DNA of 64,000 nt, taken from NCBI RefSeq assembly GCF_004310395.1, contig NZ_BFAX01000003.1, forward strand, positions 239,333-303,332, in the 5' to 3' direction. The position numbers and the translations under genes were made by a program. The stretch is from Methanofervidicoccus abyssi (lineage in GTDB: Archaea; AGJL01; Methanococci; Methanococcales; Methanococcaceae). Under the pieces are notes generated by a model. The model worked only from the letters and a program-made list of their open reading frames with translations. It did not search any database and was not told the DNA's origin. Shown piece by piece: positions 45,671 through 64,000 of the stretch (its first letter is position 1; every line of letters begins with the position of its first letter).

Positions 45671-48595
45671 GTGGTCAAAGTGTCTAATACAAAGAGACTT
45701 GTAGAGACTACGAAAATATATGAGGTCATTAATAAGATCAATGAGAAGTCTGGTAAGGAAAAGCAGGGTGGTGCTCGCCCTCCTCACTGGGAAATGGTCT
45801 TCTGGTGGACGAGGAAACCTTTGATAGGTGCAAGGGCAGTTATCGTTGCATCACTTTTGCCCGAACTTGTAGATATCAAAGATTTCAGGAGGATGATTCG
45901 TCTTGATGCAAATACACCGCATAGGGAACCTGTTTACATTCCCGAAAGCCTTAAGGGCTATTTTAATGAGATAAAGCTTCTTGATCCGTTTGCAGGCTTT
46001 GGCTCAATACCACTTGAAGCGATGAGGATGGGTCTGGATGTTACAGCTGTTGAGTTGTTGCCAACCGCTTACATTTTCCTTAAAGCTGTTTTGGAATACC
46101 CTGCGAAGTTTAGAGAAACTGTTGAGGCTGTAAAAGATAGAAGACGTGTGCTAATGAGCAGATTAATTTATGATGTCGAGAGATGGGGACAGTGGGTTAC
46201 TGAAAGGTTGAAAGAAGATGAAGATATAAGAGAGCTATACGATGAGGATGTAGCTGTTTACATAGGTAGCTGGGAGGTTAAGTGTCCGCATTGCAATAAA
46301 TGGACACCTGTCGTAGGAAACTGGTGGCTTGCGAGGGTAAAGGGTAACAGGGGCTATAAGAGGCTTGCATATATGGAACCAGTAAAGCAGGGAGATAGGA
46401 TAGAGATTAGAGTTGTTGATGTTAATAAGGAAGTTGGAAACGTTCAAACTGCTAAGGTAGATACAAAAAATGGAGTGATAGAGGTTAAAGGTAAGAAGTT
46501 TGTAGTCCCTAAGCCAAATATAGTAGCTAGAAGGAATGAGGCAAGATGTCTGCATTGCGGAAACGTGATTAAATACGTAGATGAGAGTGGAACTCATTAC
46601 GTTAGTAGAGGTAGTAGAAGAAACTTGGAATGGTATATAAAATGGGCTTTAAAGAAGTATAACGAAGGAGATGAGAGGTTTGCCAGGCAGAGGTTGCTTG
46701 TTAAGGTTAAGGTTGATAAAGAGCTTGTTTTCGAGCCGTGCAGCGATGAGGATAATTTAAAGCTTGAAAGGGCTAAGGAGAAGGTTAAGAAGTTGATTGA
46801 TGAAGGGGATGCGGATGTTCCATTAGAGGAAATTCCACAATATGACCCAAGAAGTATATGGGTTGTAAATTATGGATTTGTTAGATGGATGCACTTGTTT
46901 AATCCACGCCAGCTCCTCACCCTCGTCAAGCTGGTTAAGCTGATAAGAGAGGTCGGAAAGAGGGTTGAGAAGGAGAAGTTGGTTGAAGGCTGGAGTGAGG
47001 ATAAGGCTTTCAGTTATGCTGAGGCTATTGCTACTTATCTGGCTATTGCTTTGTGTAAATATGCGGATTTTCTTACTCTTTCAACAGCATATAACGTTGG
47101 TTTTCTTATAGTACAACATACCTTAGCTTTGAGAGGAATTGCCATGAATTGGAATTGGACAGATGCAAATCCATTTGCCAACATCACTGGCTCACTTATT
47201 CGGTCATTAAATAACTCTTTTAACGGCTTAGATTACATTGTCTCTTCGCTGAATTCAGCCACTCCTCACAATCAAGAAAAAGAAATCCAAATTAAAACAC
47301 TACTCGATGACGCCACAACCCTAAACAAACTCAACGAAAAGTTCGACATCATCGTAACAGATCCTCCATATGCTTACGATGTAGCTTACACAGAGCTCTC
47401 AGACTTCTACTACGTCTGGCTTAAGCGAGCTTTGAGCGATTCAGATGGCAAAAAACTCATTCCACGCTTCCATAAAGAAGCTTTCTTTAAGAAGGTAGGA
47501 GCAAAGCTTGTTGAAATCAAGACTCAATGGCAAGAGTTTGCGAAGAGGGAGATTTCAGAGAATCCAGGTAGATTTCTTGATGAAGAGAACAGAAGTGAAG
47601 TGGCAAGGAAGCACTTTGGAGAACTCTTCTCTCAAGCCCTCATTTCAATCAGAGAACATCTAAAAGAGGATGGAATAATCGCTCTTTACTACGCTCACAC
47701 ATCCTTTGAAGCGTGGGCGAATCTGATAGATGCTGTCAGGAAAGCTGGACTTCAGATCGTCAATACCTTCCCCCTCACGACTGAGTCACAGCAGAGCATC
47801 GTTAGGAGAGGCAAACTCTCCCTCGATACATCTATCGTAGTCGTTTGCAGGAGATTAACCGAAAAGAAAGAGGCTATGCTCACCGACATTTTACCAGAGC
47901 TCGAAAGAGAGACGAGGAAATACGCAGAATTCCTTGTTAGTAGAAACTTCGTCGGTGCCGACGTTCTGGTCGGGACTATGACTGGTGCGCTTAAGATCCT
48001 AACCAAATACTCCAGAATACTGACTCCCGCTGGAGAAATTTCCACTGTCAAGATTCTGGAAGAATACGTCTATCCTTACGTCGGTCAGGCTATAGCCTAC
48101 GCTTACAGCAGAAAGTCAGACGTATCTCCCATCCAAGACTCCAACGCTCTACTCTACACGCTTGCAAAGGTCTTGTTCGGTAGCAACGGAGTTAAGGCGA
48201 GAAAGATGGGAAGTGGAGAAATAGTCTTACTCTGCCTTTCGACCAAAGTCGAGAGAGCCAAAGCCATGCAGTTCTTCGATAGAAACAGGGAGGAATACAC
48301 GCTAAAGGAGATAAAGACGACGAATCCAAAAGAGCTAAGGAGGTTCCTAATTAGCAAAAAGATTAACCCAGACAATCCAATAATAAAGAATCCCGTCGAT
48401 TTCCTGCACCTCATGTGCTACTACTCCCTTCTCATGACTCCAAACGAGCTTAGGGAAAAATACAACGAACTATCCTACAAGTATCCGAAGGAAGCGGATG
48501 AGGCTGTTAAGATGGCATACGTGTTATACTCCCTTAAAGATCCTGAAGGAGAGTTGTGTAGAAGATTTTTGAATACCCTCAGGCTTGTGAAGTGA
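45671..48595 (+). CDS. DUF1156-family DNA adenine-type methyltransferase
   Basis: This 974-residue protein begins with a DUF1156 region (GGARPPHWEMVFWWTRKPL near residue 33). It has a SAM-binding motif LLDPFAGFGSIPLEAMRMG near 102 and an amino-methyltransferase catalytic motif VTDPPYAYDVAY near residue 562. Between them two Cys pairs (CPHC near 205, CLHC near 295) suggest a zinc ribbon. Such proteins occur with DUF499 ATPases and helicases in predicted antiviral loci, where they would mark self DNA. GTG 45671 or GTG 45680 may start it. Codon and base use change inside the gene: the second half is richer in C. It opens the defence island. Confidence 0.85.
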   Translation: MVKVSNTKRLVETTKIYEVINKINEKSGKEKQGGARPPHWEMVFWWTRKPLIGARAVIVASLLPELVDIKDFRRMIRLDANTPHREPVYIPESLKGYFNEIKLLDPFAGFGSIPLEAMRMGLDVTAVELLPTAYIFLKAVLEYPAKFRETVEAVKDRRRVLMSRLIYDVERWGQWVTERLKEDEDIRELYDEDVAVYIGSWEVKCPHCNKWTPVVGNWWLARVKGNRGYKRLAYMEPVKQGDRIEIRVVDVNKEVGNVQTAKVDTKNGVIEVKGKKFVVPKPNIVARRNEARCLHCGNVIKYVDESGTHYVSRGSRRNLEWYIKWALKKYNEGDERFARQRLLVKVKVDKELVFEPCSDEDNLKLERAKEKVKKLIDEGDADVPLEEIPQYDPRSIWVVNYGFVRWMHLFNPRQLLTLVKLVKLIREVGKRVEKEKLVEGWSEDKAFSYAEAIATYLAIALCKYADFLTLSTAYNVGFLIVQHTLALRGIAMNWNWTDANPFANITGSLIRSLNNSFNGLDYIVSSLNSATPHNQEKEIQIKTLLDDATTLNKLNEKFDIIVTDPPYAYDVAYTELSDFYYVWLKRALSDSDGKKLIPRFHKEAFFKKVGAKLVEIKTQWQEFAKREISENPGRFLDEENRSEVARKHFGELFSQALISIREHLKEDGIIALYYAHTSFEAWANLIDAVRKAGLQIVNTFPLTTESQQSIVRRGKLSLDTSIVVVCRRLTEKKEAMLTDILPELERETRKYAEFLVSRNFVGADVLVGTMTGALKILTKYSRILTPAGEISTVKILEEYVYPYVGQAIAYAYSRKSDVSPIQDSNALLYTLAKVLFGSNGVKARKMGSGEIVLLCLSTKVERAKAMQFFDRNREEYTLKEIKTTNPKELRRFLISKKINPDNPIIKNPVDFLHLMCYYSLLMTPNELREKYNELSYKYPKEADEAVKMAYVLYSLKDPEGELCRRFLNTLRLVK

Positions 48596-48952
48596 TATTA
48601 AGGAAGAGATTTTATGAGTTCATCAAAGAAAATAGGGAATTAGTTTTGTAGAGATAGAGGGTAAGTTTGGGAGTGGAAATGCAACGATAGAATTAAAAAA
48701 TAATATTATTATTATATTATTATAATTATTAATATTATTATACAATGGGGACTAAAGTATGATGTAGTTGATGCCATAATTGAGCTAATCAATGAGGAAA
48801 AAATCTACGCTCAGTCGACATCATCAGTAATCTATACTTTAGATGGTAAAGCTCTAAGATTACCTATTGCTAAAGCTCCTCCAAAAGAGGGGCATAAGGA
48901 ACTACACTGGTTTGCCCGTTGTATTAGATATTGAACCGCCCAAAGGAGGGAG
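48596..48952 (+). pseudogene. Decayed coding remnant between DUF1156 and DUF499 genes
   Basis: Coding-like scraps lie here in different frames: RFYEFIKENRELV then VEIEGKFGSGNATIELK, an AT-only stretch at 48693-48742, then about 60 residues (KYDVVDAIIELINEEKIYAQ through KAPPKEGHKELHWFARCIRY) ending at 48934 with no start codon. They may be parts of one lost gene. I do not recognise the family. The last 20 bp hold the strong ribosome binding site of the DUF499 gene. Confidence 0.4.
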
Positions 48953-48961
48953 GTGGTATTT

Positions 48962-51900
48962 ATGGGTATTAAAGCCCTCAAGATTAGAGAAGATATCCAG
49001 AAAGGAATCGATCCAGCTCCAAAGCTTGGAGAGGTGTTAAGCGGTAAAGCGGATAAGGTTTACACAGATGCAAAAGAGTTCTTCAGAAGAACGTACTTCT
49101 CCCAAAACCTAATTGATCTCCTAAAGAGAGTGGTTCGAGCTATAAAGGGAGAAGAGAGCAGTAGGATCATCACCCTCTATTCATTCTACGGCGGAGGTAA
49201 GACCCACTCCATATTAGCAATCTATCACGCTTTTAAGAATCCGGACGCTTTGAAAGATGAAGAAGTACTGAGAGATTACGATGAAGTTATCAAGCAAGAA
49301 ATCTGCAAGCTTGCAGATGAAATAAAGGAGATTTCAAAGGATTTGAAGACCATCATAGCCACTGGAGACGATACCCGTTTCTTCGGACATCCCACCGAAC
49401 CGATAGACATGCCACCCTACAAGATTCACACTCTTTGGGGCTACATAGCACACAACCTCGGCAAATATGGGCTGGTAGAGAACTACGACAAAAACCTTTC
49501 AATCCCACCTCAAAACAAGATCAGCGATCTGCTCAGCGGTGAAAAGGCAATATTCATCATCGATGAGCTGATAGATTATGCTCATTCCATGATACATTCT
49601 AAGAACGAATACGAGAAAGGATACGTCAAAAGCTTACCACAGTTTATAGAGTATTTTGCAAAAGCGATCAGAGCATCTGATTCGATTTTAATAATCTCAT
49701 TACCCGTTGAATTAAAGAAGACCCGGTCTGAAACGGGGTTTGAAACGGATTGGAGATACGATAGGGGCTTCGTGCAGTCAGTGTGGAACGCCCTTAAAGA
49801 TTTTGCTCTTCCAATTTCACCGCTTAGAACCGAAGGAGTAAAAGATGATGTCGTCGAAGTTCTAAAGAAGAGAATCTTCGAAAAAATCCCTGAAAACATC
49901 AAAATGTCCGCTCTTCAAAAGTTGAGAGAGAAAGTAGTATCATACGAAGAGCACTTTGTCGGTTATGAAGATTTCCTCAGAAAGTTTGAGAGAACATACC
50001 CATTCCATCCCGACTACCTCGAAATCCTTGAAAAGTTGATATCCAGTCTAAAGCTTCAAAAGACGAGAGATGCCCTCAAGATAACGATTGAAGTTGTAAA
50101 GAGCATCATAAACTCCGGAGAAGATTCAGAGTACATAACGGTATGGCACATCGATCCATCACTCGATTCTCTTAAGCCCATGCTTTTCAGAGATCTATAT
50201 GCAGACTACGAGATGGTTTACAGGAAAGAGGTTGAAGGTATATCTGGCTTTACAGAGCCTGAACTCGTTAAAATAACGTTAAGAACTGTATTTCTCTCAA
50301 CATACATACATGACAGTCCAATAAGAAGAGATGACTTTCCTGATAGGAAAAAGCTTGTAAGGATGGTTTACGAACCAAGAAAGTTCACTGAAAACAACTG
50401 GGAACCTACAGATGTGTTATCTGCCCTTGAAGCGGCATACAGTAGTGAGGAAATTACACACCTAATGGAATCTGAAGGCAGATATTGGTTCTGGAGACAT
50501 GCAAATGTAAAGGAGCACATCGAAAATAGGGCAAGAACGTTGCTTGAACATGAAGATGACAGAATATATAATAAGATAGAAGAATACCTAAAGCTCAGTG
50601 AACATGGTAAGCTGAGCGATAGGGGAGTTACTAAGAAAGTCGGTAGAAGAAAAGAAAGAGAGGATATAGTGCAATTCTTTGATAAAATCATTTATCTTAA
50701 GACTACCTACGACGAGAGAAAAGTTGAAGATGATAGATCTCTAAAACTCGTCGTATTTGTCAAAAAGGATTTGATGATCGACTTAAGAAAAGATATATTT
50801 GAAAACTACGAAGATTCTGAGAGAACGTATAAGAACACTGTCGTTGTCTTGATGCCAAGCGAAGAATACTACGATAAGATAAAGATACAAGCTGCTAGAC
50901 TTGTCGCATGCGATTTGGTTGAGAAAGAAGTTTCAAGCTTTTACGCGGAACATGGGAAGAGTGTCGTAAAAACACAAAAAGCTTTAATTGAAGATTTTAG
51001 AGGGACATACGAAAAAGACTTAATAGAGGCTATTGTAAAAGGATACACACTCGTTTACTATCCAAGAGAGGTTGATTATAAATTTGATGTTTGTGAAGCG
51101 TTAATCCAAAATCCTTCGTATCACCTTCCAACAGCGGTTTACATTACATTATCAAAGGCACCAATACTAAAGATTAGTGATGTTCTAACGTTTGAAGCTC
51201 TCGTAAAACACATAAAGGACGTGATGGGTGTAGATATAACTGAATCTGACAGAATCTACACGGTAGAGCAGATAATAGACTGGTTTAAGCAAAGAGCAGC
51301 GTTTCCAATGGTAAAAGATGAGGTAATTAAAAATGCTTTAAAGGAAGGTGTTAGGCTAAAGAAGATAGGAGTGCTTGACGGAAATGAAATATACTTCAAG
51401 AAAGTCCACAAAAATACCCCACCACTCAGCCAAGAAATAGATGAGGGTGAAATACCAGACACGTTAAAAGATGATGCTAAAGTTCTACCGAGGAGAAAAG
51501 CTGTAGAAATACAATATAAAATGCTCAAAGAAAAGGAAAAAGTACTGAGAAGATTAGATGTTGTAGAAAAGATATGGTATGAAATAAAAGCTGAAGACAG
51601 TGTTCTAAGACTTGAGGAACTTCCAACTATGGATGACTGGCACTACACCTTCGTTAATGGATTGATTGTAGAAAAAAGAGAAAAGCTGAAGTCTGGTATA
51701 ACTGTCGAAGTGTATCCCGGAACTGGAATAGAAAAAGATGCTGGGAAAGAGGTAAGAATTACAATTAAAGCAATACCTATAAATTTAGAGGTCGAAAAAG
51801 TCGAAGTATCTGTAAAATGCAATGATAAAGAAATTTTAAGTCAAGAAATGGAGAGAAAGGATGATAGATTTGAGAGTGTTTTATACGTCAATGCTCCCAA

Positions 51901-52366
51901 GATGGAAGGTGAAAAGGATAATTATATAGCTGTAGTTAAAGCATATACTCCAAATGGAGTATTTGAAAAATCTATAAGGTTTACGATAGAGGCAAAAGTA
52001 AAGAGAAAGACTGTTAAGTTAAGAGAGATTAATGAGAAACACATAGGAGCAAAGTTAATAAAAATATTAGATATTAAGGATTACAGTATTCTTTCTGATA
52101 TTGAAAATATACCTGAATTTAAAGAAGCAAAGGTTACTGGTAATCTCATTGTAAAAGTCAATGCAGGAGAGATTAATGTAAACTATAGTAATGTAAGTAT
52201 CGATGTAGCAGCGAACTCATCGAAAGAAATTGCAGATTATGGTTTAGAGTCCTCAGGAACATTCGAAGTAGAACCTAATGAGTCTTTTGAACTAAAAGAG
52301 CTAACAGTTAGAAAGCTTATGAGATTAAATGGAAAAGTAGAATTTTTACTTGGACTGGAGGAGTGA
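48962..52366 (+). CDS. DUF499 P-loop ATPase of a defence cassette
   Basis: This 1134-residue ATPase belongs to the DUF499 family. The P-loop SFYGGGKTHSILAIYHAF lies near residue 75. An acidic Walker-B-like FIIDELIDYAHSM lies near 200. The C-terminal 250 residues look like beta-rich domains (about 920-1130). Family members occur in predicted phage-defence loci with DUF1156 methyltransferases and SNF2 helicases, perhaps as motor or sensor. GGAGGGAGGTGG before ATG 48962 is unusually strong. The first third is C-rich with Archaeoglobus-like codon use and the last third is AT-rich. The next gene starts 4 bp after its stop. Confidence 0.85.
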   Translation: MGIKALKIREDIQKGIDPAPKLGEVLSGKADKVYTDAKEFFRRTYFSQNLIDLLKRVVRAIKGEESSRIITLYSFYGGGKTHSILAIYHAFKNPDALKDEEVLRDYDEVIKQEICKLADEIKEISKDLKTIIATGDDTRFFGHPTEPIDMPPYKIHTLWGYIAHNLGKYGLVENYDKNLSIPPQNKISDLLSGEKAIFIIDELIDYAHSMIHSKNEYEKGYVKSLPQFIEYFAKAIRASDSILIISLPVELKKTRSETGFETDWRYDRGFVQSVWNALKDFALPISPLRTEGVKDDVVEVLKKRIFEKIPENIKMSALQKLREKVVSYEEHFVGYEDFLRKFERTYPFHPDYLEILEKLISSLKLQKTRDALKITIEVVKSIINSGEDSEYITVWHIDPSLDSLKPMLFRDLYADYEMVYRKEVEGISGFTEPELVKITLRTVFLSTYIHDSPIRRDDFPDRKKLVRMVYEPRKFTENNWEPTDVLSALEAAYSSEEITHLMESEGRYWFWRHANVKEHIENRARTLLEHEDDRIYNKIEEYLKLSEHGKLSDRGVTKKVGRRKEREDIVQFFDKIIYLKTTYDERKVEDDRSLKLVVFVKKDLMIDLRKDIFENYEDSERTYKNTVVVLMPSEEYYDKIKIQAARLVACDLVEKEVSSFYAEHGKSVVKTQKALIEDFRGTYEKDLIEAIVKGYTLVYYPREVDYKFDVCEALIQNPSYHLPTAVYITLSKAPILKISDVLTFEALVKHIKDVMGVDITESDRIYTVEQIIDWFKQRAAFPMVKDEVIKNALKEGVRLKKIGVLDGNEIYFKKVHKNTPPLSQEIDEGEIPDTLKDDAKVLPRRKAVEIQYKMLKEKEKVLRRLDVVEKIWYEIKAEDSVLRLEELPTMDDWHYTFVNGLIVEKREKLKSGITVEVYPGTGIEKDAGKEVRITIKAIPINLEVEKVEVSVKCNDKEILSQEMERKDDRFESVLYVNAPKMEGEKDNYIAVVKAYTPNGVFEKSIRFTIEAKVKRKTVKLREINEKHIGAKLIKILDIKDYSILSDIENIPEFKEAKVTGNLIVKVNAGEINVNYSNVSIDVAANSSKEIADYGLESSGTFEVEPNESFELKELTVRKLMRLNGKVEFLLGLEE

Positions 52367-52369
52367 GAT

Positions 52370-52807
52370 ATGAAGACCATGGTAGCATCTTCTTCTATTA
52401 TTTTATACTTACCTCTTCAAAACACCAACGTGTACTTTGTAGTAAAGAAAAAGCACAAGGGGAAAGTCAGATACGTATTCTCGAAAGTTCCTGACAAAAA
52501 AGAGGATTATGCAACAGCTGCCATTACCTGCAGTTATCCAGATGTCGAAAGGTTTGCAAGAAGACTGAAGTTTGAAAAAGATGGGAATGTTTTTGTAACA
52601 GATAGCAGAGATGCTTTTCTGAGACTTATGCTCTTTACAGCAGTGAGAAGGGTTATAAGGAATGAAAAGAGAGCGGAAAAGCTTGCAGATATCGTTTACG
52701 ATCTCCCATATTTTGAACTCGTATTTTGGATAGATAAGATGAGAAATACTTCATGGTGGGAGATGGATAGAATCGCCAGAGCCTTTCTGATGGTATACAA
52801 CGTGTAA
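52370..52807 (+). CDS. Unknown small protein of the defence cassette
   Basis: This 145-residue protein was not recognised. It begins with a beta-rich half (SSIILYLPLQNTNVYFVVKK, HKGKVRYVFSKVPDKKED) and ends in helices (AVRRVIRNEKRAEKLADIVY, MDRIARAFLMVYNV). It has no membrane segment and only one cysteine. It sits tightly between the DUF499 ATPase (3-bp gap) and the helicase (start within 11 bp), so it is surely co-translated with them. In related loci a small protein, sometimes DUF3780, occupies this slot; homology to it cannot be judged by eye. Confidence 0.75.
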   Translation: MKTMVASSSIILYLPLQNTNVYFVVKKKHKGKVRYVFSKVPDKKEDYATAAITCSYPDVERFARRLKFEKDGNVFVTDSRDAFLRLMLFTAVRRVIRNEKRAEKLADIVYDLPYFELVFWIDKMRNTSWWEMDRIARAFLMVYNV

Positions 52808-52817
52808 GGTGTGCTTC

Positions 52818-55646
52818 ATGTTTGTGAAAAATCTCATATCACGTTTCACTTTGGAATTATTAGAAAATGATCCCGCTTTCTTCTTCTATTCTCTTCAGCC
52901 TAGCATGCCTGGATATAAACCCGTAAAAATGCTCAAACATCAAGCTGCACTACTCTGGAGGATAGTTCCTGTAAATCCTGTTAGATGTCTCATAGGTGAT
53001 GAAATAGGACTTGGTAAAACTATAGAGGCTGCAGTAATTGCAAGATATTTAGAAAAAAGGGGTGTGAAAAGAGTACTCTTACTACTTCCAAGAATCTTGA
53101 TGAGGCAGTGGAAAGAAGAGCTAATGAGAGTAGGAATAGCGGAAGTATACATAAGAGAGCTTGAAAGATACACTTTCGATTACTTGAGGAGTGCTGGCTT
53201 TCCTGAAGGATATTATATTGCGTCGATCGATACTGTAAAGAAAGAAGATTTTAAGTCAAAAATAAGAGACATTGAGTGGGATCTTATCATCGTTGACGAG
53301 GCCCATAATATTGGTGGAGAGACTTTAAGGGACAGTCTTATCAGAGATCTTAAGGCAAAGAATATCCTTTTCCTCTCTGCTACACCACACAGAGGTAATG
53401 CAGCCCGTTATATAGGTATGCTTTCCCATCTTGATCCAAGCTTGAAGGCGATGGCAACAAAGCTTGATAACGTGGAATTTTATAGAGCTACACATAATTG
53501 TCTTGTCCATAGAAGGACAAAAGAAGTCGTGAATGAGCTTGAGGGTAGAGAAGTGTTTCCAAAGTGTCATATAAGAGCGGTCGTGGCTAAAGCAAGCATG
53601 GATGAAAAAGAATTTGCGGATGGTATAGTTGACTTCTTGAGAGAGCTAATCAGAGAGGTTAAGAAAAGTAGCGAAGATTTAGAGAAAACTCCAGAGGGAT
53701 TGCTGGCAGTTATCTTAAGAAAGAGGGTCTCTTCAAGCCCAAGAGCTGCAATAAAAACCCTTAAGACGATTATAGAAAACTTTGGGGCTAAAATCACTGG
53801 GAATGTTTCAAGTGATCATTCAAGAGTATCGAGGATTTTTGGAACTTCCTATGATGAGATGGATATTGAAGACGATGCTGATGAAAGACTTAATGAAATA
53901 GCAGCTAAGTATGCCGGAATTTTTGAGGAAAGACATATTAGAAGATTGCAGGAGTTTATAAATTTAGCTCGGAGAATAGAAGAACACGATAGTAAGCTCG
54001 AAACTCTGAGAGATATAATTGAATATCACATTGAGAAAGGTAGTAAGGTGATAGTTTTCACTGAATATAAAGATACCCTCGACTACCTTGAAGAGAAGCT
54101 TAAAGATCTTAACCCACTGACAATAAGTGGTGCCAACAGAGACGAATGGGGCTGCATTCTTGCTGATTTTGAGAGTAAAGAAAGAAGTCTTCTCATAGCA
54201 ACAGATGTAGCATCAGAAGGTCTCAATTTGCAGATTGCAAACGTCGTCGTAAACTATGAATCCCCATGGACACCGATAAAGCTCGAACAGAGGATAGGAA
54301 GAGTTTGGAGACTTGGGCAAGAAAAAGAAGTGTTTGTATATAACCTCTTCCTTGCAACGAGAGCAGATTTAGATATTGCTAACGCTCTTTATGTAAAGCT
54401 TCTTAACATACATGAAGCTTTGAGTGATACAAGAGCAATACTCGGAGAGAAGATTCATGCCGCGTATGAGAAGGATGTTGGTAGCGTGGATCAGATATTC
54501 GAACCAGTTTCTGAGCTTGGCGAGGTTAAAATAAAAGGTAGGAGAAGAAAGATAACAGAGTATAGGATAGCGCTTTCGCAGATCACTGGAGAATTTGACG
54601 AACTTATGGAACTTATAGCGAGGCAGATTGCAGATCTTAAAGATGAGATATTTAGAAAGAGAATATATCCGACAGAGATTGCAGAATTTATAAAAGAACA
54701 ACTTCAAAGACTTGGTGTAGGAGATTCAGAGAAGATAGAAAAGTTACTATTAGACGTGGTAAATTTGTGTTCTCTAGAAGTTAGGAATGTTCATGAAATT
54801 TATGAACTGCTGAAGACGATTGATGGAAGAATACCAGAAATACTTGTTATATTGGACGACAAAGAGGGCGTTGACTATATAGTGATTGCTACCGTAAAGT
54901 TTGCTGAGCATGAGATGAAGATTCCGCTCGTAGTCTTTGGAGATGATATTAAGATAGGTATAGATGCTTTGAAGTACATTATTGAACTTGTGAAAAGATC
55001 AATAGTCCCGGATAATATCTATTATGAAAAGCAAATAAGGCCTGGAATAGGTATTAAGAGCATGATCAAAATTAAGCTTGAAGAAAGATTTAACTCTCTC
55101 TTACGTCCTTACAGGGAATACTCTTCAAAATATGGGGGACTTTGGAAAGATGTTGGTATAAAAAATATAAGACTCGAAATTTTGACAACAGTCTTAAGAC
55201 TACCTTCTACACCTGGAAATCCAGAAGAGTACGATGAAAGTTTTAGGAAGAAAGTCGAAATGGCTGCTGTGGAGTTTGTAAAAAGATATGAAGAAAGAGA
55301 GGGTAGGGTAATAGAAGACAGGCAAGATACGATGAAGTATGACTTCTATACATATCCAAAAAATGAGAAGGATGTTCAGGAGGGTATGAGGAGAGGTGAA
55401 AGATATATAGAAGTAAAGGGGCATGCTAGGGGCGCTGTGTTCTCAATACTTCCAAAAGGCGAGTTTGAGTTCGCAAAGGGTAGGGGAGATAAATACTGGC
55501 TTTACGTTGTGTATAACGCTTTGAGTGATAATCCCATACTAGTTGCCATTAGGGATCCTATAAGCAAGCTTGCTATCGAGAAAGAAAAAAGGACTAAGGT
55601 TATTAAGGAAGAAGTCTATAAAGTTTATTTCAAACCCAGGATTTAA
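52818..55646 (+). CDS. SNF2/HepA-type superfamily 2 helicase with C-terminal DUF3883-like nuclease domain
   Basis: This 942-residue protein combines two parts. The helicase has GDEIGLGKTIEAAVIARYL near residue 60, DEAH-type box IIVDEAHNIGGETL near 160, LFLSATPHRG near 190, and the C-lobe LIATDVASEGLNLQIANVVV and QRIGRVWRLGQEKEV near 460-500. The C-terminus (about 840-930) contains RYIEVKGHARGAVFSILP and LYVVYNALSDNP. This resembles DUF3883, a predicted PD-(D/E)xK-like nuclease with an E-x-K core. It could be the effector of the DUF1156-DUF499 cassette. GGTG before ATG 52818 sets the start, 10 bp after the small gene. Confidence 0.85.
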   Translation: MFVKNLISRFTLELLENDPAFFFYSLQPSMPGYKPVKMLKHQAALLWRIVPVNPVRCLIGDEIGLGKTIEAAVIARYLEKRGVKRVLLLLPRILMRQWKEELMRVGIAEVYIRELERYTFDYLRSAGFPEGYYIASIDTVKKEDFKSKIRDIEWDLIIVDEAHNIGGETLRDSLIRDLKAKNILFLSATPHRGNAARYIGMLSHLDPSLKAMATKLDNVEFYRATHNCLVHRRTKEVVNELEGREVFPKCHIRAVVAKASMDEKEFADGIVDFLRELIREVKKSSEDLEKTPEGLLAVILRKRVSSSPRAAIKTLKTIIENFGAKITGNVSSDHSRVSRIFGTSYDEMDIEDDADERLNEIAAKYAGIFEERHIRRLQEFINLARRIEEHDSKLETLRDIIEYHIEKGSKVIVFTEYKDTLDYLEEKLKDLNPLTISGANRDEWGCILADFESKERSLLIATDVASEGLNLQIANVVVNYESPWTPIKLEQRIGRVWRLGQEKEVFVYNLFLATRADLDIANALYVKLLNIHEALSDTRAILGEKIHAAYEKDVGSVDQIFEPVSELGEVKIKGRRRKITEYRIALSQITGEFDELMELIARQIADLKDEIFRKRIYPTEIAEFIKEQLQRLGVGDSEKIEKLLLDVVNLCSLEVRNVHEIYELLKTIDGRIPEILVILDDKEGVDYIVIATVKFAEHEMKIPLVVFGDDIKIGIDALKYIIELVKRSIVPDNIYYEKQIRPGIGIKSMIKIKLEERFNSLLRPYREYSSKYGGLWKDVGIKNIRLEILTTVLRLPSTPGNPEEYDESFRKKVEMAAVEFVKRYEEREGRVIEDRQDTMKYDFYTYPKNEKDVQEGMRRGERYIEVKGHARGAVFSILPKGEFEFAKGRGDKYWLYVVYNALSDNPILVAIRDPISKLAIEKEKRTKVIKEEVYKVYFKPRI

Positions 55647-55808: not shown

Positions 55809-56591
55809 ATGAGAAGTCTGAATGAAATTTTGGAAATCTTCTCACAAATTCCTTTGGAAGTCTGGAACAAAATTGTTCAGGAAGAACCAGAATGGAAGAA
55901 TATGTGAGAATTTCTTGAAAAATATGGATTCAGCAGATTTGCAGTTCTCATGACAGCAGCCGGATTAAACGACTTTCAGCTCAAAGGAAAGGCCGAGGTA
56001 GCATACTGGCCAAAAATAAGAGAATTGCTGGAGTCCTGTAAACCTCCTGAAAGCCTGTCCGACCTAAAATTGATTCTTTCAGAATTTTACAGCAAAGAAA
56101 GACTGCCAGATCTAAAACTGAAGAGACTGAGTCGGTTCCTTTCAAGCAGACTCGCTGAATGGTTATGGGAATCAAGTGCAAAGGATGTTGCTGAGAATTT
56201 CGTCAAGATTTGGTATGAGCTTGCTACAACAATGAAACAGAATAGAAATGCAAAAACAATTGTCTTTGCGATGAAATGCCTCGGGATTGCACTTCTCATG
56301 GCTGGGGAGACTAATTTCAGTTTCGAGAGTATTCCCATTCCTGTGGATTACAGAGTCAGAGAATTCACGAGAAGACTCGGTATAGCCGTGAATACTGACG
56401 AGGACGTGCGAAGATTCTGGAACAAAGTTCTGGAGGGATTGAGAAGAAATGGTAAGAGAATAAACATGATCCACCTTGATTCTCTGATATGGCAGATTGG
56501 CGTGCTGAGAAATTCTGAGATAGTGGATTATTTTTCGAGATTAGGTTTGAAGGAAGTTGGAGAGAGAATATCGGAAGTGTTGAGAAGATGA
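55809..56591 (+). pseudogene. AGOG-type 8-oxoguanine DNA glycosylase/lyase interrupted by an in-frame UGA
   Basis: AGOG removes 8-oxoguanine and nicks the DNA. The frame from ATG 55809 (behind GGTGAT) matches the full family length, 260 codons. TGA at 55905-55907 (codon 33, context EEPEWKNM-stop-EFLEKYG) interrupts it. After the stop the frame is clean: GLNDFQLKGKAEVAYW, KTIVFAMKCLGIAL with a candidate catalytic Lys (codon 156), IPIPVDYRV with a candidate Asp (codon 180), and HLDSLIWQIG. An internal ATG at 55950 could make a 213-residue protein lacking the N-terminus. Trp TGG to TGA is the simplest cause. The stop overlaps the DUF6884-like start by ATGA. Confidence 0.8.
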
Positions 56592-56656
56592 GGCTATGTA
56601 TAGTCCCGTGTGGAAGTTTAAAAATCTGGCACAGAAATCCTGATACAGGACCCACA
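56588..56656 (+). pseudogene. 5' part of a DUF6884-like gene split by an inserted element
   Basis: ATG 56588 overlaps the glycosylase stop (ATGA). It begins MRLCIVPCGSLKIW and RNPDTGPT, typical of the N-terminus of small DUF6884-type proteins (a cysteine-containing PCGSxKIW start). The match ends at 56656. The rest of the gene resumes in frame at 58597 with KAKDVYIGPFAKAC. Joined, the two parts give 149 residues, which fits the family. Confidence 0.75.
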
Positions 56657-56993
56657 AGTTAAATAAAAGTTGTTGCAGGTCCCCAGGTACCTTAACTATG
56701 GTCCAATTACCCAACTTACTCAACTCTAAGAGGGAGTGTTTAGCCAGTTTGTTTAAAATAGCATAAAATTGCTTTCTTTTATTTTTGGCAGTTAGTTTAT
56801 TCTTTACTCTATTGTAAATATAAGCCGTAAAAATAGGGTTTCTTGGATAGTCTATAAACTCGGTATAAACGTAGCTAAGGATGGAGTACTCTATAGAGTG
56901 GTTTATATTGCTGATATTAAGTCTTTCTATGAGTAAAGTTTTTATATATTCAGTGACAATCTCATATATGGAGGGGTTCTTTAAGCCAGGCAT
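56657..56993 (-). pseudogene. N-terminal part of the element's Rep gene (separated by integration)
   Basis: ATG 56993 follows GGAGGT at 57007-57002. About 112 element-encoded residues start MPGLKNPSIYEIVTEYIKTL. They contain a mostly helical region rich in Lys, Asn and Tyr (YPRNPIFTAYIYNRVKNKLT, KQFYAILNKLAKHSLLELSK) that resembles a DNA-binding winged helix. The frame then continues past the junction through antisense glycosylase/DUF6884 sequence to 56541; those last 38 residues are not native. Joined to the part starting at 58596 it makes a full Rep. Confidence 0.7.
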
Positions 56994-57007
56994 ATTATTA
57001 ACACCTC

Positions 57008-57190
57008 CAACCTACCCAACCTACTGACAATTTCATATACGGAGGGGTCTTTCATACTATTAACACCTCCGGTAGTCTCGTATACGGTGGGGTTCTTTAG
57101 TGTCAGCATACTATTAACACCTCCAACTTGCTATAAGCCGCAAAAATAGGATTGTTGGGATAGTCTATAAACTCGGTATAAACATACCAT
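57008..57190 (-). repeat. Degenerate tandem copies of the rep 5' end
   Basis: The stretch upstream of the rep start repeats pieces of the gene. At 57024-57070 and 57071-57124 there are two more copies of the block GGAGGTGTTAATAGTATG followed by a KxPxVYE-coding sequence. At 57131-57186 there is a 55-bp copy of 56817-56873, which codes for YTEFIDYP. They are interrupted and cannot make a Rep. They look like remnants of earlier duplications, and they present three ribosome-binding-site/ATG units in a row. Confidence 0.75.
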
Positions 57191-57193
57191 TAG

Positions 57194-57216
57194 GGAAGGG
57201 GGATTTTCCCCCTTCC
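57194..57216. promoter_or_regulatory. Strong GC hairpin in the plasmid non-coding region
   Basis: A perfect 10-bp stem (GGAAGGGGGA / TCCCCCTTCC) with a TTT loop is followed by TTTT on the plus strand. In this AT-rich context it stands out. It could be the double- or single-strand origin hairpin of rolling-circle replication, or a terminator. Confidence 0.6.
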
Positions 57217-57296
57217 TTTTATCACTGTTTATTTTGTTTTAGTATATATATTTTTTTTTTATTCCCAGGGTATTTTACTAATTTTTTACATTTAAC

Positions 57297-57516
57297 CAAA
57301 TGCAAAAAATTCACTTAAGTGAATAAAACACCTACCTACTGGGGGTTATAGGGTATAGGAGTTTGCATTTATTAAAGTGCAAAAAATTCACTTAAGCAAA
57401 TAAATTGCTTAAGCAATTTTATTGCAAAATTAGTAAAGTGCAATAAAATTGCTTAAGCAATATTTAGTAAAGTGCAATATAAACACCTACCTACGGGAGG
57501 TTATAGAGTATAAGAG
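57297..57516. repeat. Iteron-like and palindromic region, candidate replication origin
   Basis: Palindromes centred on CTTAAG are TTCACTTAAGTGAA at 57310-57323, AAATTGCTTAAGCAATTT at 57402-57419 and ATTGCTTAAGCAAT at 57448-57461. AAAGTGCAA recurs at 57374, 57435 and 57469. A 35-bp direct repeat beginning AAACACCTACCTAC occurs at 57326 and 57481, flanking the palindromes. Such arrays upstream of or beside rep genes usually bind Rep. The region lies immediately 3' of the rep C-terminal part. Confidence 0.65.
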
Positions 57517-57526
57517 AATATCTTAA

Positions 57527-58596
57527 CTACCATACAAACCGCACACTATAAACAGGCTTCCCAGTATCAAAGGAGGAAACCCTGAAGTAATCAGGATAAT
57601 AATCACAATAATTCCGCCGTCTAAATCTAAATTTATCTTTGATATACTTTAAAATATCCGAAATACTGGAAAATTCAGGGAAAACAGATAAATCTATACT
57701 GGTTAAAAACTCATACTTAGGTATTTTAACTTTTATGCCTTTGTTAGTAGTCAAATCCCTGGAATATGTGAAAAACCTAAAGTTATAAACCCAGTAAAAC
57801 ATTAACTCTCTATCTTCATAAAACGCCTTTTTTAAGTATTTTGTAAGGTAATCACTTATATTTTTAGCTTTGCAGTTTTTAGGTTTATAATTTAGCCAAG
57901 TAAAGGTATTTTTTACCCTTTTGAGTGCATAAATATAAACTATCTTACCCATTCCATACCTGTCCCAGGTTTCACTAATCCACCTTTGAGATATTAACCA
58001 CTTCCAACCTTTACCCTTACCCCTACTATTACTGGCTTTTACCCTTATTTTGTCAGTAAATACCAGTAAATGGATATGAGGAACCCCCGCCTTAGTAAAT
58101 TCAAGGACTTTAATATAAGTTTTTATTCCGAATTTTCTCTTTAGCAAGTCCATAAATTTTTTAAAATTATAATACAACCCTTTTTTTATGGTTTTGTAAT
58201 TGTTTTTATTAGGATCTACCGTCAAAGTTATGAAAAAAGCATACTTATAGGATTTAGCCGCTAAGGTTATTTTTTCCTTAAATTCCTCTATTCTTTTTCT
58301 TAATTTGCTAGTGGAGTTAAATCTGGTAGTATAATCTAAAATAAGGAGATCATCTTCCTTTAAATCTTCAATACTAACCCCTTTTTTCTTCAAAATAATT
58401 TTAATGTCTTCACATTTGCTTAAATAGTAATTGAAAAGCATATAAATAAATTCTTTCTCAAAAAAGGTTAATCTACTTTTATCTTTGATGTAATTGATAG
58501 CAATTTTTTTAATATCGCTTAAAGTCAGGTCTCGTTTTTCTAAATCTTCATAAAACTGATTTAAGAAAAGTTCGAAATTTTGCACTGTATGGATCA
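57527..58596 (-). CDS. Rolling-circle replication initiator Rep (HUH endonuclease), C-terminal part
   Basis: About 355 residues carry the three HUH-Rep motifs: motif 1 FFITLTVDP, motif 2 GVPHIHLLVF (the metal-binding HIH), and motif 3 DYLTKYLKK with two tyrosines spaced YxxKY. In the open frame that extends to 58744 these lie at residues 170-178, 220-229 and 298-306. The first 50 codons of that longer frame are antisense to the DUF6884-like gene and are not native. Such proteins nick the plus strand at the origin and stay attached through tyrosine. The C-terminus (RFRRRNYCDYYPDYFRVSSF) is basic and aromatic. The true N-terminal part is at 56993-56657. Confidence 0.82.
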
Positions 58597-58977
58597 AAGG
58601 CAAAGGACGTTTACATTGGTCCCTTTGCAAAAGCATGTATTGATTATGCTGAGAGATTTTATCCCGGAAGATATGTGATTCTATCTGCCAAATACGGTTT
58701 TCTCTTTCCGGATGAACTGATTCCCGGAAATTATAACGTGACATTCAACAATCCAAAAACAAACCCGATAGGGGTTGAAGAACTGAGAAAGCAGGCAGAG
58801 CATAAAGGATTAATGAAATATGACGAGATAGTTGTTGTTGCGGGTAGCAATTACGTGAAAATAGTCAGAAAGGTGTTCGCAGTAAAGAAGATCATAACTC
58901 CGCTCAAGGGGCTTGGGGGAATGGGTCCAATGATATCTGCTATAAGGAGAGCCATAAGAGATGAAAGGGAGCTTTAA
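58597..58977 (+). pseudogene. 3' part of the split DUF6884-like gene
   Basis: The frame resumes KAKDVYIGPFAKACIDYAER then YPGRYVILSAKYGFLFPDEL, PGNYNVTFNNP and ends near RRAIRDEREL. YILSAKYGLL-type cores are typical of DUF6884/YaaA-like proteins. An ATG at 58675 could start a 100-residue product, but the PCGSxKIW N-terminus is 1.9 kb away at 56588. The gene is therefore broken by the plasmid insertion. It and the glycosylase gene were probably an operon. Confidence 0.75.
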
Positions 58978-59794: not shown

Positions 59795-61048
59795 TCACCT
59801 AGCCTTATCATGCCTAAACACCTCATCCAAAATACTTTCCTTTAATTCTTCAAGTTGAATTATTTGATTTTGGATTTTTTCTTTTAAAGTTTTGATTTTT
59901 TGGTAAACATTATCAAGGTATTGGGCTATTTCTTTTTGTTTTTCAAGGTCTGGTTGGTTGTTGTGGAAAGGGAGGGGGATTTTTAGGTTTTTGAGAAAAT
60001 TTTTATTTACATGTGGTGTTGCAGTATATTTACTTTTATTAAGATGTTCAAAGTAAGTATTCAAAAACCAAAACACATACTTTTTACTAAGGTCATGCTC
60101 CTTGATTTCAAGTTTTGCCATGGTTGATACCAATACTCCTTCTATATCACAAAAAAACAATTCTCCAGAACGGGATCCATCGGCTATTATGACCAAGTCT
60201 CCTTTTTGTACTCTTAAAATTTTATTTTCTTCAATTGGAATATATTCTTTAATTTTTTTCTCTCTAAAATAATCCAATGTTAAATAAGGTAATGCGTTTT
60301 TTTGTTTTTGTTTTAGGACTTCTTTAGGTTTTTTTCCTTTTAATAGATCAATTTTGTCTAAAAACCTCACCTCTCTCCACTCCTCACCCTCCTTCGGCTT
60401 AAAGGCATGCTCCAAAACACTTTCCCATAGTTCATCCAAAAACTCAAGTTCTTTCTTTTTCTTTTCCAGAATTCTGTCAATTTTTTCAAAGTTTGTTTCT
60501 ATGTATTCAACGATTTTCTTTTGCGTTTCTAAATCTGGCTTGCCGTTGCGGAAGGGGATGGGGATTTTTAGGTTTTTAAGGAAAGTTAAATTAACATTAT
60601 TTTGAGCTCCTCCCCTTCCCCTTTCTTTAAGTTCTTGTCCAAATTTAAGCAATACCCAATAAAGATATTTATTATCATATTCTTTTTTAGGTATAATTCC
60701 TGCAATAGCTTGATTTGTGGTAGCTTCTATATTAAGTATACCAACATGACCAATTGTAGCAAAAATAGTAAATAGTATAGTGCCTTTTGGCAATAATTTT
60801 GCTGAAGAATTGTTTAAACCTTTTTCAGTTATTTTTTCTTCAGTATCATTCACATATCCTTCTTCTGGGATATCTTTTATTTTAACCCATGGTATTGTTC
60901 CATTCTCCCAATATTCTTTGTTTTTTCTACTAGGTGTTCCTCCACTTTTAATCTCTTTTGCAATCTCCCCCAACCTCACCTCTTTCCACTCAACTCCCTC
61001 AACTTCCCAAGGTTTCTTGGCTTTTATCAAGTTTTTTACATCACTCAT
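59795..61048 (-). CDS. hsdS: Type I restriction-modification specificity subunit
   Basis: HsdS recognises the split DNA target of a type I system. The 417-residue protein has two target-recognition domains, each followed by a conserved helix. The first half ends KNLKIPIPFRNGKPDLETQK, the second KNLKIPLPFHNNQPDLEKQK. The two repeats share an 18-bp identical DNA block (59975-59992 and 60560-60577). The start ATG overlaps the end of hsdM by 4 bp (ATGA). The last residues are DEVFRHDKAR. The recognition sequence cannot be deduced. Confidence 0.93.
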   Translation of the reverse strand: MSDVKNLIKAKKPWEVEGVEWKEVRLGEIAKEIKSGGTPSRKNKEYWENGTIPWVKIKDIPEEGYVNDTEEKITEKGLNNSSAKLLPKGTILFTIFATIGHVGILNIEATTNQAIAGIIPKKEYDNKYLYWVLLKFGQELKERGRGGAQNNVNLTFLKNLKIPIPFRNGKPDLETQKKIVEYIETNFEKIDRILEKKKKELEFLDELWESVLEHAFKPKEGEEWREVRFLDKIDLLKGKKPKEVLKQKQKNALPYLTLDYFREKKIKEYIPIEENKILRVQKGDLVIIADGSRSGELFFCDIEGVLVSTMAKLEIKEHDLSKKYVFWFLNTYFEHLNKSKYTATPHVNKNFLKNLKIPLPFHNNQPDLEKQKEIAQYLDNVYQKIKTLKEKIQNQIIQLEELKESILDEVFRHDKAR

Positions 61049-62511
61049 CTTAACACCCCTCTCAACTCCTCAAGTAATTTCATAACCTCCCTTTCCTCTC
61101 TCAAAACATCTTCTAAAATCTCCGTTGATGGTCTGTATTCCTTTTTCTTAAACTTGTTGGGATTTCTTGGCGTAAGCTCATAGGTTTCCTTATCTATTTC
61201 ATCAATCTTAACAATCCAGGAGTTTTCGCTTATTCCCCTGTTTTTCCATTTTTCATAACAATCTAATAAATATTCATCTTTTATAGGATCTGTTTTAGTA
61301 TATTGTTTTTCTACCCATTTTCCATAACGTGTTTTTACCATACCCAACGGGTGTTTATGTTCATAATACCATATCTCTTCTGTTGGTCCTGTTTTATCAA
61401 AGAACAGCAAATCAGTTTTTACAGGAGTTTTCCCGGAGGCTATAAATACCCCTTTTGGTAAAGAGATAATAGTATGAACATTATAATTCTCAAGAAGTTC
61501 CTTTCTAACTCTTACAAATGGTCCAGTTGTATTGGACAAAACACCTTCCGGAACAACTATGCCAACCCTCCCACCCCGCTTTATTTTCCTCATTACATAC
61601 TGTAGAGCCATTAACTCAGTTTTGGAACTTTTAACAGGAAAATTAACCTTAAACCTCTTATCAAACTTGCCTCCAAATGGAGGATTTGTGAGGATAACAT
61701 CAACCCTATCCTTTTCCTGGATTTTTCTGACATCCTCAGCAAATGTATCCACTTTGTAAATGTGAGATGTCGGTAAATTATGCAAAAGAAGGTTCATTAT
61801 TCCAATAAGATAAGGAACGTCCTTCTTTTCTTGTCCATAAAACATGTTATACAAAATTTTGGTTTCTTTTGTGGTAAAAACTTCCTTATTTCTCAATATA
61901 TGATTATAACTCTCAATCAAGAACCCGGCAGAGCCTAAAAATGGATCCAGAATCTTTTCGCCAAGCTTAGGATTAACAATCTTAACCATCAACCTGATTA
62001 TGGGCCTGGGAGTGTAATACTCCCCAGCATATTTACCCATCTCCCCAATCTCTGGCAAAAGCTCTTCATAAAGAGTAGAAATAATGTAAATATCTTCTCT
62101 TGTTCTGAACTCGAGTTCATCAAGGAGCAGAGCAACTTCTCTCAGCTTATAACCATCTCTCAGGAAATTCTGAATTTCTTTACCGCTGAAAATTGTGGCG
62201 ATTAACTCTTTCTCCCCATCTCCATCGAGTTTTGAAAGAAAAGGAAAAAGCTCATTGTTAATAAAGTTTATAAGTTCTTCACTTCTCCAATCCTTATGAA
62301 CCCAGTCTTTCCACCGGTATGGAGAAGGTATATTCCTTTGGTATGTTTCTCCCTTCAACTTAGACTTTAACTCCCTTTCATCTTCAAGATCATCGTAAAG
62401 CTTTAAGAAAAGCATCCAGGATAGTTGAATTATGTAGTTTACAGAGGCGATCTCATTCCTCAGTAAATCGCATGCCTGTTTGAACTTTGATTTTAATGTT
62501 TGCCTATCCAT
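61045..62511 (-). CDS. hsdM: Type I restriction-modification DNA methyltransferase subunit
   Basis: HsdM methylates adenine in the host target. The 488-residue N6-adenine methyltransferase has an N-terminal helical domain, then GEYYTPRPIIRLMVKIVNPK near residue 162. SAM motif I ILDPFLGSAGFLIESY lies near 190 and the catalytic NPPFGGKFD near 278. GRVGIVVPEGVL is near 312. It overlaps hsdS by 4 bp and meets hsdR at its start, so the three are one operon transcribed leftward. Confidence 0.95.
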   Translation of the reverse strand: MDRQTLKSKFKQACDLLRNEIASVNYIIQLSWMLFLKLYDDLEDERELKSKLKGETYQRNIPSPYRWKDWVHKDWRSEELINFINNELFPFLSKLDGDGEKELIATIFSGKEIQNFLRDGYKLREVALLLDELEFRTREDIYIISTLYEELLPEIGEMGKYAGEYYTPRPIIRLMVKIVNPKLGEKILDPFLGSAGFLIESYNHILRNKEVFTTKETKILYNMFYGQEKKDVPYLIGIMNLLLHNLPTSHIYKVDTFAEDVRKIQEKDRVDVILTNPPFGGKFDKRFKVNFPVKSSKTELMALQYVMRKIKRGGRVGIVVPEGVLSNTTGPFVRVRKELLENYNVHTIISLPKGVFIASGKTPVKTDLLFFDKTGPTEEIWYYEHKHPLGMVKTRYGKWVEKQYTKTDPIKDEYLLDCYEKWKNRGISENSWIVKIDEIDKETYELTPRNPNKFKKKEYRPSTEILEDVLREEREVMKLLEELRGVLR

Positions 62512-64000
62512 TATCCAACACCTCCCGACTCATAAAGACCTCGAGAAATACTTTCAAGGGTACGAATGAGGTTGTCTATACCACCAAAAGAATCTATGAT
62601 CTCTTTCAGTTTGCCAATCTTCTGGATATCAGGTGATTCTAAGGCTTCAGGTGAAATCTCCTCAATACCGCCTATCTTGTATTTTTCTATGAGGTTTAGT
62701 ACAACTTTCTTTGCAGTTTCATTGAAAGAGTTTATAATTTGTTGTTTCTTGTTCAATAATGCTTGAGCTCTGTCGTCTCTACTCAAAATTGGGGCATCAA
62801 AGGCAACATGAGCAATAATATCAAAGGCGTCTGCATCAGGTCTATCAAGTAATTGGGCTATTAACTCAGGATTTATACTCCTTGCCTTTAAATCTTCCAA
62901 AAATCTTTTTCTTTTCTCTTTGTTTATCCAGATTTTCCTTAAATCGTCCAACGTAAGAACTTTTTTTCTAACATTTTCCCTCGCATATTCAATATATTTT
63001 GCTTTATTGAGTTTTTTACCCTCAACCTCAACATATAATTCCTCCTCAATGTAAACATTAATTCCCTTAACTACAATCTTGCCTTCCTTTGGTTTTTTCT
63101 TCTTTAACTCAACTACAACAGCAATTTTATCCTTGAAAGGTATAGGATCAACGCTTACCTCTTTTGTTTTGTAGTTCTTTGCCTCAACTTTTACCCTTAC
63201 AGGAGAATGGGGACAACCATCAATAATAAACTCCCCATTCTCATTTGTTCTTGCTGGTTTAACCATGTTAACGCCTAATTTTGCTGTTATCCTTGCATTT
63301 GAAATAGGAGTTCCATCCTCGCTATCCACAACCTTCCCTTTTATGAAGAAATCAAATGGACCTTCAGGCATATCAGGTATATATTCTTCAGGAGGCAAAT
63401 CCCATGGATCCAAAAGTCGGGTGGCGTCTACAAAATCTATTATCCTGAAAAAGAATTTGCCAGCATCCTCACTTATCCTACTTCCTCTACCTATGATTTG
63501 CTTGAACAATACCTTTGATGCAATGGGTTTCATGAAAACTATGTTTTTTACAGGTGGAATATCTACACCCGTGCTTAGTAGATCTACTGTTACGGCAATA
63601 ACAGGTACTTGAGATTCCGGATCTGCCATTTTTTCAGCTAACTCTATAGCATTTGGTTCTTCGTCAACAATCCTTACCACGAAATCATCTGCATTCATTC
63701 CAGTTGAAGCGATTTCAGAAGCTAATTCATTCTGTAAAATCTTTACAACATCCAGAGCATGTTCTTTGGTTACACAAAATACAATAGTTTTCTCTGTAGG
63801 ACCATAAATCTTCAATATCTCAGCAAGTTTCTTTGTCATAGCCTCTGTTCTATCTGGTAAAGTTATAACCTTTTCAAACTCACCTACGGAATAGAATTCC
63901 TTAACTTCCACATCTTCGGGAGCTTCAATAACAGCACCTTCGCTTGCTACATCAGTAAGAGATATCCCTCCTTCTTTATCAACGTTTATATAAATCTTGT
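62511..64000 (-). CDS. hsdR: Type I restriction enzyme motor/nuclease subunit, C-terminal part (cut by window edge)
   Basis: The frame is open to the right edge, so only the last 496 residues are seen. The second helicase lobe shows TIVFCVTKEHALDVVKIL, STGVDIPPVKNIVFMKP and KQIIGRGSRIS. After it comes an unusual stretch, FFIKGKVVDSEDGTPISNAR through GEFIIDGCPHSPVRVKVEAK, that looks like a carboxypeptidase-regulatory/transthyretin-like beta domain. An EcoEI-type C-terminal region (LDDLRKIWINKEKRKRFLED, GGIDNLIRTLESISRGLYES) ends the protein. The nuclease domain and first helicase lobe lie outside the window. Confidence 0.9.
   Translation of the reverse strand, partial: KIYINVDKEGGISLTDVASEGAVIEAPEDVEVKEFYSVGEFEKVITLPDRTEAMTKKLAEILKIYGPTEKTIVFCVTKEHALDVVKILQNELASEIASTGMNADDFVVRIVDEEPNAIELAEKMADPESQVPVIAVTVDLLSTGVDIPPVKNIVFMKPIASKVLFKQIIGRGSRISEDAGKFFFRIIDFVDATRLLDPWDLPPEEYIPDMPEGPFDFFIKGKVVDSEDGTPISNARITAKLGVNMVKPARTNENGEFIIDGCPHSPVRVKVEAKNYKTKEVSVDPIPFKDKIAVVVELKKKKPKEGKIVVKGINVYIEEELYVEVEGKKLNKAKYIEYARENVRKKVLTLDDLRKIWINKEKRKRFLEDLKARSINPELIAQLLDRPDADAFDIIAHVAFDAPILSRDDRAQALLNKKQQIINSFNETAKKVVLNLIEKYKIGGIEEISPEALESPDIQKIGKLKEIIDSFGGIDNLIRTLESISRGLYESGGVG

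Follow-up and report, generated by a model that had tools for sequence, protein, structure and literature searches.

The small rolling-circle plasmid pTP2 of Thermococcus prieurii (NC_021208.1) is the prototype of the pTP2 family. Relatives of its rep gene are scattered in methanogen chromosomes without synteny, a matter that PMC5988781 leaves as an open question in its excerpted text; the same excerpts describe no integrated pTP2 copies opened at the site discussed here. The published double-strand origin (dso) of the Rep74/Rep75 plasmids, GGGTTTATCTTG/ATA, lies in the rep coding region according to the available part of PMC9569500, and Rep_1 plasmids are nicked at CTTGATA (PMC10378824, in excerpt). 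Our search of the open PubMed Central literature found neither a mapped nick site for the Rep family of pTP2 and the alphapleolipoviruses nor a description of the nick site proposed below or of integration at it. Among transposable elements, Helitrons encode two-tyrosine HUH enzymes. The enzyme of IS91 is of the same two-tyrosine HUH kind (PMC5714925, in the part available).

Here, we analyzed a 64-kb stretch of DNA (the window, i.e., the whole stretch at its full length) that carries a small element related to these plasmids (Table 1). Its Rep is homologous to that of pTP2 (29.8% over 61%, E 2e-24) and, distantly, to those of the alphapleolipoviruses HRPV1 and HRPV2 and the pleolipovirus Halfgib1 (E 2e-6 to 4e-10, identity 22-25%), a kinship that fits the pTP2-like Rep cluster described in the excerpted text of PMC6668415. 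pTP2 and the window element are alike in size (about 2 kb), in an in-gene CTTG^AT and in a GC hairpin just before rep, whereas pTP2 is a free circle with further small ORFs. The three viruses have CTTG^A at the corresponding place of rep and differ by their larger viral genomes. pGT5/pTN1 (Rep75/Rep74) likewise have the dso in the rep coding region but belong to a different Rep family. IS91/IS801 and Helitrons share with the element the lack of a target duplication, with tetranucleotide targets for IS801; they are, however, transposons, and the window Rep has no Helitron helicase domain. SNJ2 differs in having Rep-Arvir, which is Rep_trans-like rather than HUH, together with an integrase; HUH motifs are present in the window Rep.

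Table 1. Coordinates of the integrated element, the interrupted host gene and the features of the repeat/hairpin array (window positions)
Feature	Coordinates	Strand	Basis
Whole integrated element, 1,940 bp	56655..58594	-	Excision restores host frame; intact homologue L076 without indel
Interrupted host DUF6884 gene, 5' fragment	56588..56654	+	PF21818 on intact homologue L076
Interrupted host DUF6884 gene, 3' fragment	58595..58977	+	Joined flanks versus intact homologue
3' terminus TTTAACTTG, left half of proposed dso nick site	56655..56663	-	TTAACTTG ends 3/3 readable elements
5' terminus ATCCATACAGTGCAAAATT, right half of proposed nick site, with TGCAAAAT box	58576..58594	-	Box recurs in relatives
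rep N-terminal part, 113 codons, severed from HUH part	56655..56993	-	In frame across circle junction
HUH part of rep, 352 aa, GTG start when integrated	57527..58585	-	PF23343, E 4.7e-10
GC hairpin in rep leader, perfect 10 bp GGAAGGGGGA/TCCCCCTTCC, 3-nt loop	57194..57216	.	Sequence scan
TATA-like box of presumed rep promoter	57243..57252	-	Read directly in sequence
Four CTTAAG palindromes and three AAAGTGCAA units; presumed operator, Rep-binding sites or single-strand origin	57292..57480	.	Repeat/fold analysis
36-nt direct repeat, copy 1	57326..57361	.	
36-nt direct repeat, copy 2, 89% identical to copy 1	57481..57516	.	
Degenerate copy of rep start region (ribosome-binding site and ATG)	57076..57127	-	81% to 56960-57011
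Degenerate copy of internal N-terminal coding piece	57132..57186	-	89% to 56819-56873

When the element is taken out, the joined host flanks form a 149-aa DUF6884 reading frame, a protein matched in 11 of the 297 genomes of our genome search. The best match outside genome G000 (L076 in G231, 77% amino acid identity over all 149 residues) aligns with the joined flanks free of gaps across the join. Since CAA stands at both junctions, the element ends are ambiguous by 3 bp, and beyond this ambiguity there is no target duplication. On the rep-sense strand the element starts with ATCCATACAG at 58594 (ATCCATACAGTGCAAAAT in the longer reading) and ends with TTTAACTTG at 56655. No tRNA gene was found in the 64-kb window. 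The element sits between two defence modules. The one at 45671-55646 contains, consecutively, a methylase (DUF1156), a DUF499 ATPase, a 145-aa protein and a SNF2-type helicase, and its genes match the PADLOC HmaB, HmaC and HmaA models, which makes it a candidate Hma-type defence system; the one on the other flank (59795-63911) contains type I restriction-modification genes for the specificity, methylase and restriction subunits.

The ends of the element and the split of rep are established by sequence, and the free form would be a circle of 1,940 bp. If the element is circularized, the small ORF runs on in the same frame into the HUH Rep ORF, which gives a single rep of 468 codons beginning at the ATG at 56993. 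The HUH part carries HxH and YxxxY motifs, i.e., motif I FFITLTVDP, HIH and Y246/Y250 (numbering of the 352-aa part), and H170, H172, Y246 and Y250 are invariant in alignments of four and of seven reps. The view of the sequence-only reading, made before this analysis, that this is a rolling-circle HUH-Rep element holds. Two other models of the Pfam scan stayed under their cut-offs on the window Rep: Rep_1 (PF01446) at 24.7 bits against a curated 33.2, and Helitron_like_N at 21.3 of 28.9 bits. In a fold search the model of the HUH part (mean pLDDT 54, the core better) is nearest to SIRV1 ORF119 (2x3g; Z 10.0, 114 residues, rmsd 3.0), a viral Rep nuclease. Rank 1 alone stands out; the next row has Z 7.0 and the rest are mostly ribosomal S6-like and similar folds. 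The N-terminal part gave a poor model (pLDDT 54), an HMM of nine Rep N-termini scores it no better than shuffles, and pairwise comparison with the N-terminus of the G020 Rep showed no similarity.

At the circle junction the sequence reads TTTAACTTG^ATCC. The AACTTG^AT at this point resembles the dso of the Rep74/Rep75 plasmids and the CTTGATA nick of Rep_1 (pC194-type) plasmids, as well as the phiX174 origin. Rep probably nicks here, i.e., at AACTTG^AT followed by the TGCAAAAT box, a point of rep where the N-terminal part gives way to the HUH domain, and the predicted nick substrate is TTTAACTTGATCC. An uncut CTTG^A stands ahead of the HUH part in pTP2, HRPV1, HRPV2, Halfgib1 and four relatives residing in chromosomes, L049 and L050 (both Methanomassiliicoccales), L051 (Aenigmatarchaeota) and L067 (G316). 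With the window circle counted, CTTGA is found 50-160 codons before motif I in 9 of 11 reps, compared with 3.5 in shuffled sequences; it is absent from the searched stretch of the G020 provirus Rep and of L068. Please note that the count of 11 leaves out the partial matches L070/L073 (G386) and L071 (G042), L006, whose rep start on contig 12 of G020 was not recovered, the integrated L004 of G004 and L063, which is identical in sequence to L050, and that a weak Rep match in G032 (E 6.8e-4, close to CRISPR-like repeats) was not used. DNA rather than protein seems to be conserved at the site, because L050 reads it in another frame, CTT GAT and not TTG AT. In L049 (5436-6801) the two parts of rep, N-terminal and HUH, share a stretch around the nick-like site but are read there in different frames; a frameshift, separate genes or decay may account for this. 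pTP2 has the site twice (318 and 521), within a tandem repeat of the record; the isolate of PMC5988781 lacked a tandem repeat that the record has (excerpted text).

A weight matrix made from the eight other replicons, whose sites were chosen partly for CTTG, ranks the junction 1st of 3,880 circle positions. Over both strands of the 64-kb window, however, six positions reach this score, and the junction could not have been located with the matrix alone. Downstream of CTTG^ several uncut rep genes have the same box as TGCAAAAT, and the box near the nick side and the array repeats have AGTGCAAAA in common. The GTGCAAAA motif noticed earlier inside rep near the integration point is indeed present at 58578-58585; the link that it was thought to make between origin and integration holds. 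As purely a separate recognition repeat, GTGCAAAA was rejected: the HUH ORF opens with these same letters, GTG CAA AA (GTG 58585-58583), so that the 9-mer in common with the array is suggestive at most.

Other copies are opened at the same point and lie at different host loci. The phase NL|I (LNL|I in the window, G004 and G001) is kept at the joins in all three elements, although in G004 a stop codon precedes the join by seven codons, and every element with a readable 3' end (3/3) ends in TTAACTTG. A homologous 5' box begins the element in the window, in G004, in G001 and in the relic L002, and a weaker one the relic L003; both relics are rep remnants in the window's own genome that start at the same point, L003 weakly. 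A gene in L003 suggests that the window's assembly is akin to other Methanococcales. The L002 relic (L018/L002) is a 123-bp rep start, 93% identical to the window element, beside a PP2C-like phosphatase gene, and its 3' end was not found. The G001 element is broken over two contigs, and its flanks are adjacent in an element-free G000 stretch (L084), with a lower similarity that does not fix the boundary to a single base. For the G004 element no empty site was found next to hacA, for which 10 orthologues from outside G004 were inspected. Three of the five 5' host flanks end in TTG (window, L002 and G001), the others in TTTA (G004) and TTTAG (the L003 relic); a host target rule YTTG is weak, and the CTTG of L002 and G001 may be the element's own. 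Scanning viral contigs with three queries gave no relative; scanning genome contigs gave none with a single Rep and three with an alignment query. Genome G020 has a provirus-like region (L020) with a packaging-ATPase-like and a tyrosine-recombinase-like gene, and the Rep encoded there, a relative of 477 aa, is intact over its full length and lacks the CTTG site.

We consider it probable, at roughly 75%, that a pTP2-type rolling-circle plasmid was integrated by Rep-catalysed strand transfer at its own double-strand origin, splitting rep. A free 1,940-bp plasmid with one gene, rep, and the dso nick site inside it would have entered the chromosome opened exactly at the nick site; Rep-catalysed strand transfer would have joined the opened plasmid to the host without target duplication, leaving rep halved. 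Strand transfer by Rep is the best explanation because different host sites receive an element opened at one point, and, as the nick lies inside rep, each integration would cut rep in two. Nicking at the junction and the role of Rep as integrase, like the function of the array discussed below, are what we infer from comparison of the sequences. More tentatively, and at somewhat less than even odds, the replication initiator of this archaeal family would also be the integrase and the origin also the attachment site, so that integration halts replication and excision would rebuild rep, i.e., a latency switch without a dedicated integrase.

Fixed ends, several host sites and the missing target duplication would suit an autonomous rolling-circle transposon of the IS91 or Helitron type that was never a plasmid. 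IS91 relatives insert at tetranucleotides, GAAC and CAAG among them (PMC3189936, in excerpt), and CAAG is the complement of CTTG. A transposon nevertheless seems unlikely to us: the closed circle has an intact rep with its own leader, which is split upon integration, pTP2, the closest of the named relatives, exists as a free plasmid, and the Pfam scan of the window Rep (E up to 1) brought up no IS91 transposase model. Host recombination could also have inserted the plasmid without Rep at short CTTG/CAA microhomology, given that just 3 bp are common to the two joins in the window and that AT-rich genomes offer many such sites. We hold this for improbable, since microhomology alone does not explain why the same plasmid point recurs in several elements at different loci; even then, a nick at the origin could still have guided the recombination.

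The repeat/hairpin array at 57190-57526 was the place where the sequence-only reading had expected the nick. Every feature described there is present, including the perfect 10-bp GC hairpin and three AAAGTGCAA units (57374, 57435 and 57469), whereas the CTTAAG palindromes number four and not three (57314, 57391, 57408 and 57452) and the duplicated block, given as 35 bp, is 36 nt long with 89% identity. The region is non-coding as stated, but the sizeable non-coding part is bigger, 56994-57526, since 56994-57189 holds degenerate copies of the small ORF's beginning and of an internal piece of the N-terminal part; these tandem copies look as if they were made by repeated slippage during copying. 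The folding of 57190-57526 goes far beyond chance, with energies of -64.8 and -65.0 kcal/mol for the two strands compared with means of -27.9 and -29.1 for shuffled sequences (z -9.6 and -10.3; none of 100 shuffles as good), and no hairpin with at least six GC pairs turned up when 305 further stretches of 400 nt in the window were scanned.

Strong secondary structure that might expose the nick by a hairpin, array positions ranked 2nd and 3rd by the nick matrix and the AGTGCAAAA held in common with the nick-side box would speak for the array as the double-strand origin. Both ranked positions are, however, without CTTG^A, which does not occur in the array at all; apart from one TTGCTTAAGC, the G004 element does not share the sequence of the array; and the element ends together with the uncut sites of the eight other replicons point inside rep. 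A nick in the array was thus rejected, a double-strand origin there being very unlikely, and the best candidate is split between the element ends at 56655 and 58594, inside the circular rep.

The likeliest role of the array is that of a rep control region (operator and leader), because in the closed circle it precedes the start of rep, where promoter, leader and operator are expected; its present place after the HUH part would be due solely to the opening of the circle within rep. Towards rep, the order in the circle is palindromes, TATA-like box, hairpin, repeated ribosome-binding site/start copies and rep. A sigma-70 promoter scan is uninformative for archaea. Free pTP2 and G004 have counterpart GC-rich leader hairpins of 9 and 10 bp, which stand 40 and 56 nt before the rep start, respectively, compared with 200 nt in the window, where the repeats intervene; before rep, G020 has no such hairpin and L050 a weak one. 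The TTGCTTAAGC palindrome recurs before the rep start of the G004 element (L016:5950), which also carries an extended minisatellite with many CAGTACTGGG-type palindromes (L016:5180-5910), located between the rep start and an ORF of 169 aa. The palindromes may be Rep-binding sites or a lagging-strand start. The next candidate is a lagging-strand (single-strand) origin instead of an operator, a reading with a reasonable chance that we would still bet against: rolling-circle plasmids need such an origin and the fold formed by the palindromes on the displaced strand has a z of -9.6, but the opposite strand folds equally well, and a TATA-like box and the leader hairpin stand on the rep side of the array.

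The junction of this element provides a concrete candidate nick site for the Rep family of pTP2 and the alphapleolipoviruses, and Rep-catalysed integration offers a chromosomal entry route for mini-plasmids without an integrase. Integration at the nick site would account for the rep relatives that are scattered without synteny in methanogen chromosomes. If true, rolling-circle replication and rolling-circle transposition would be joined in one small archaeal system.
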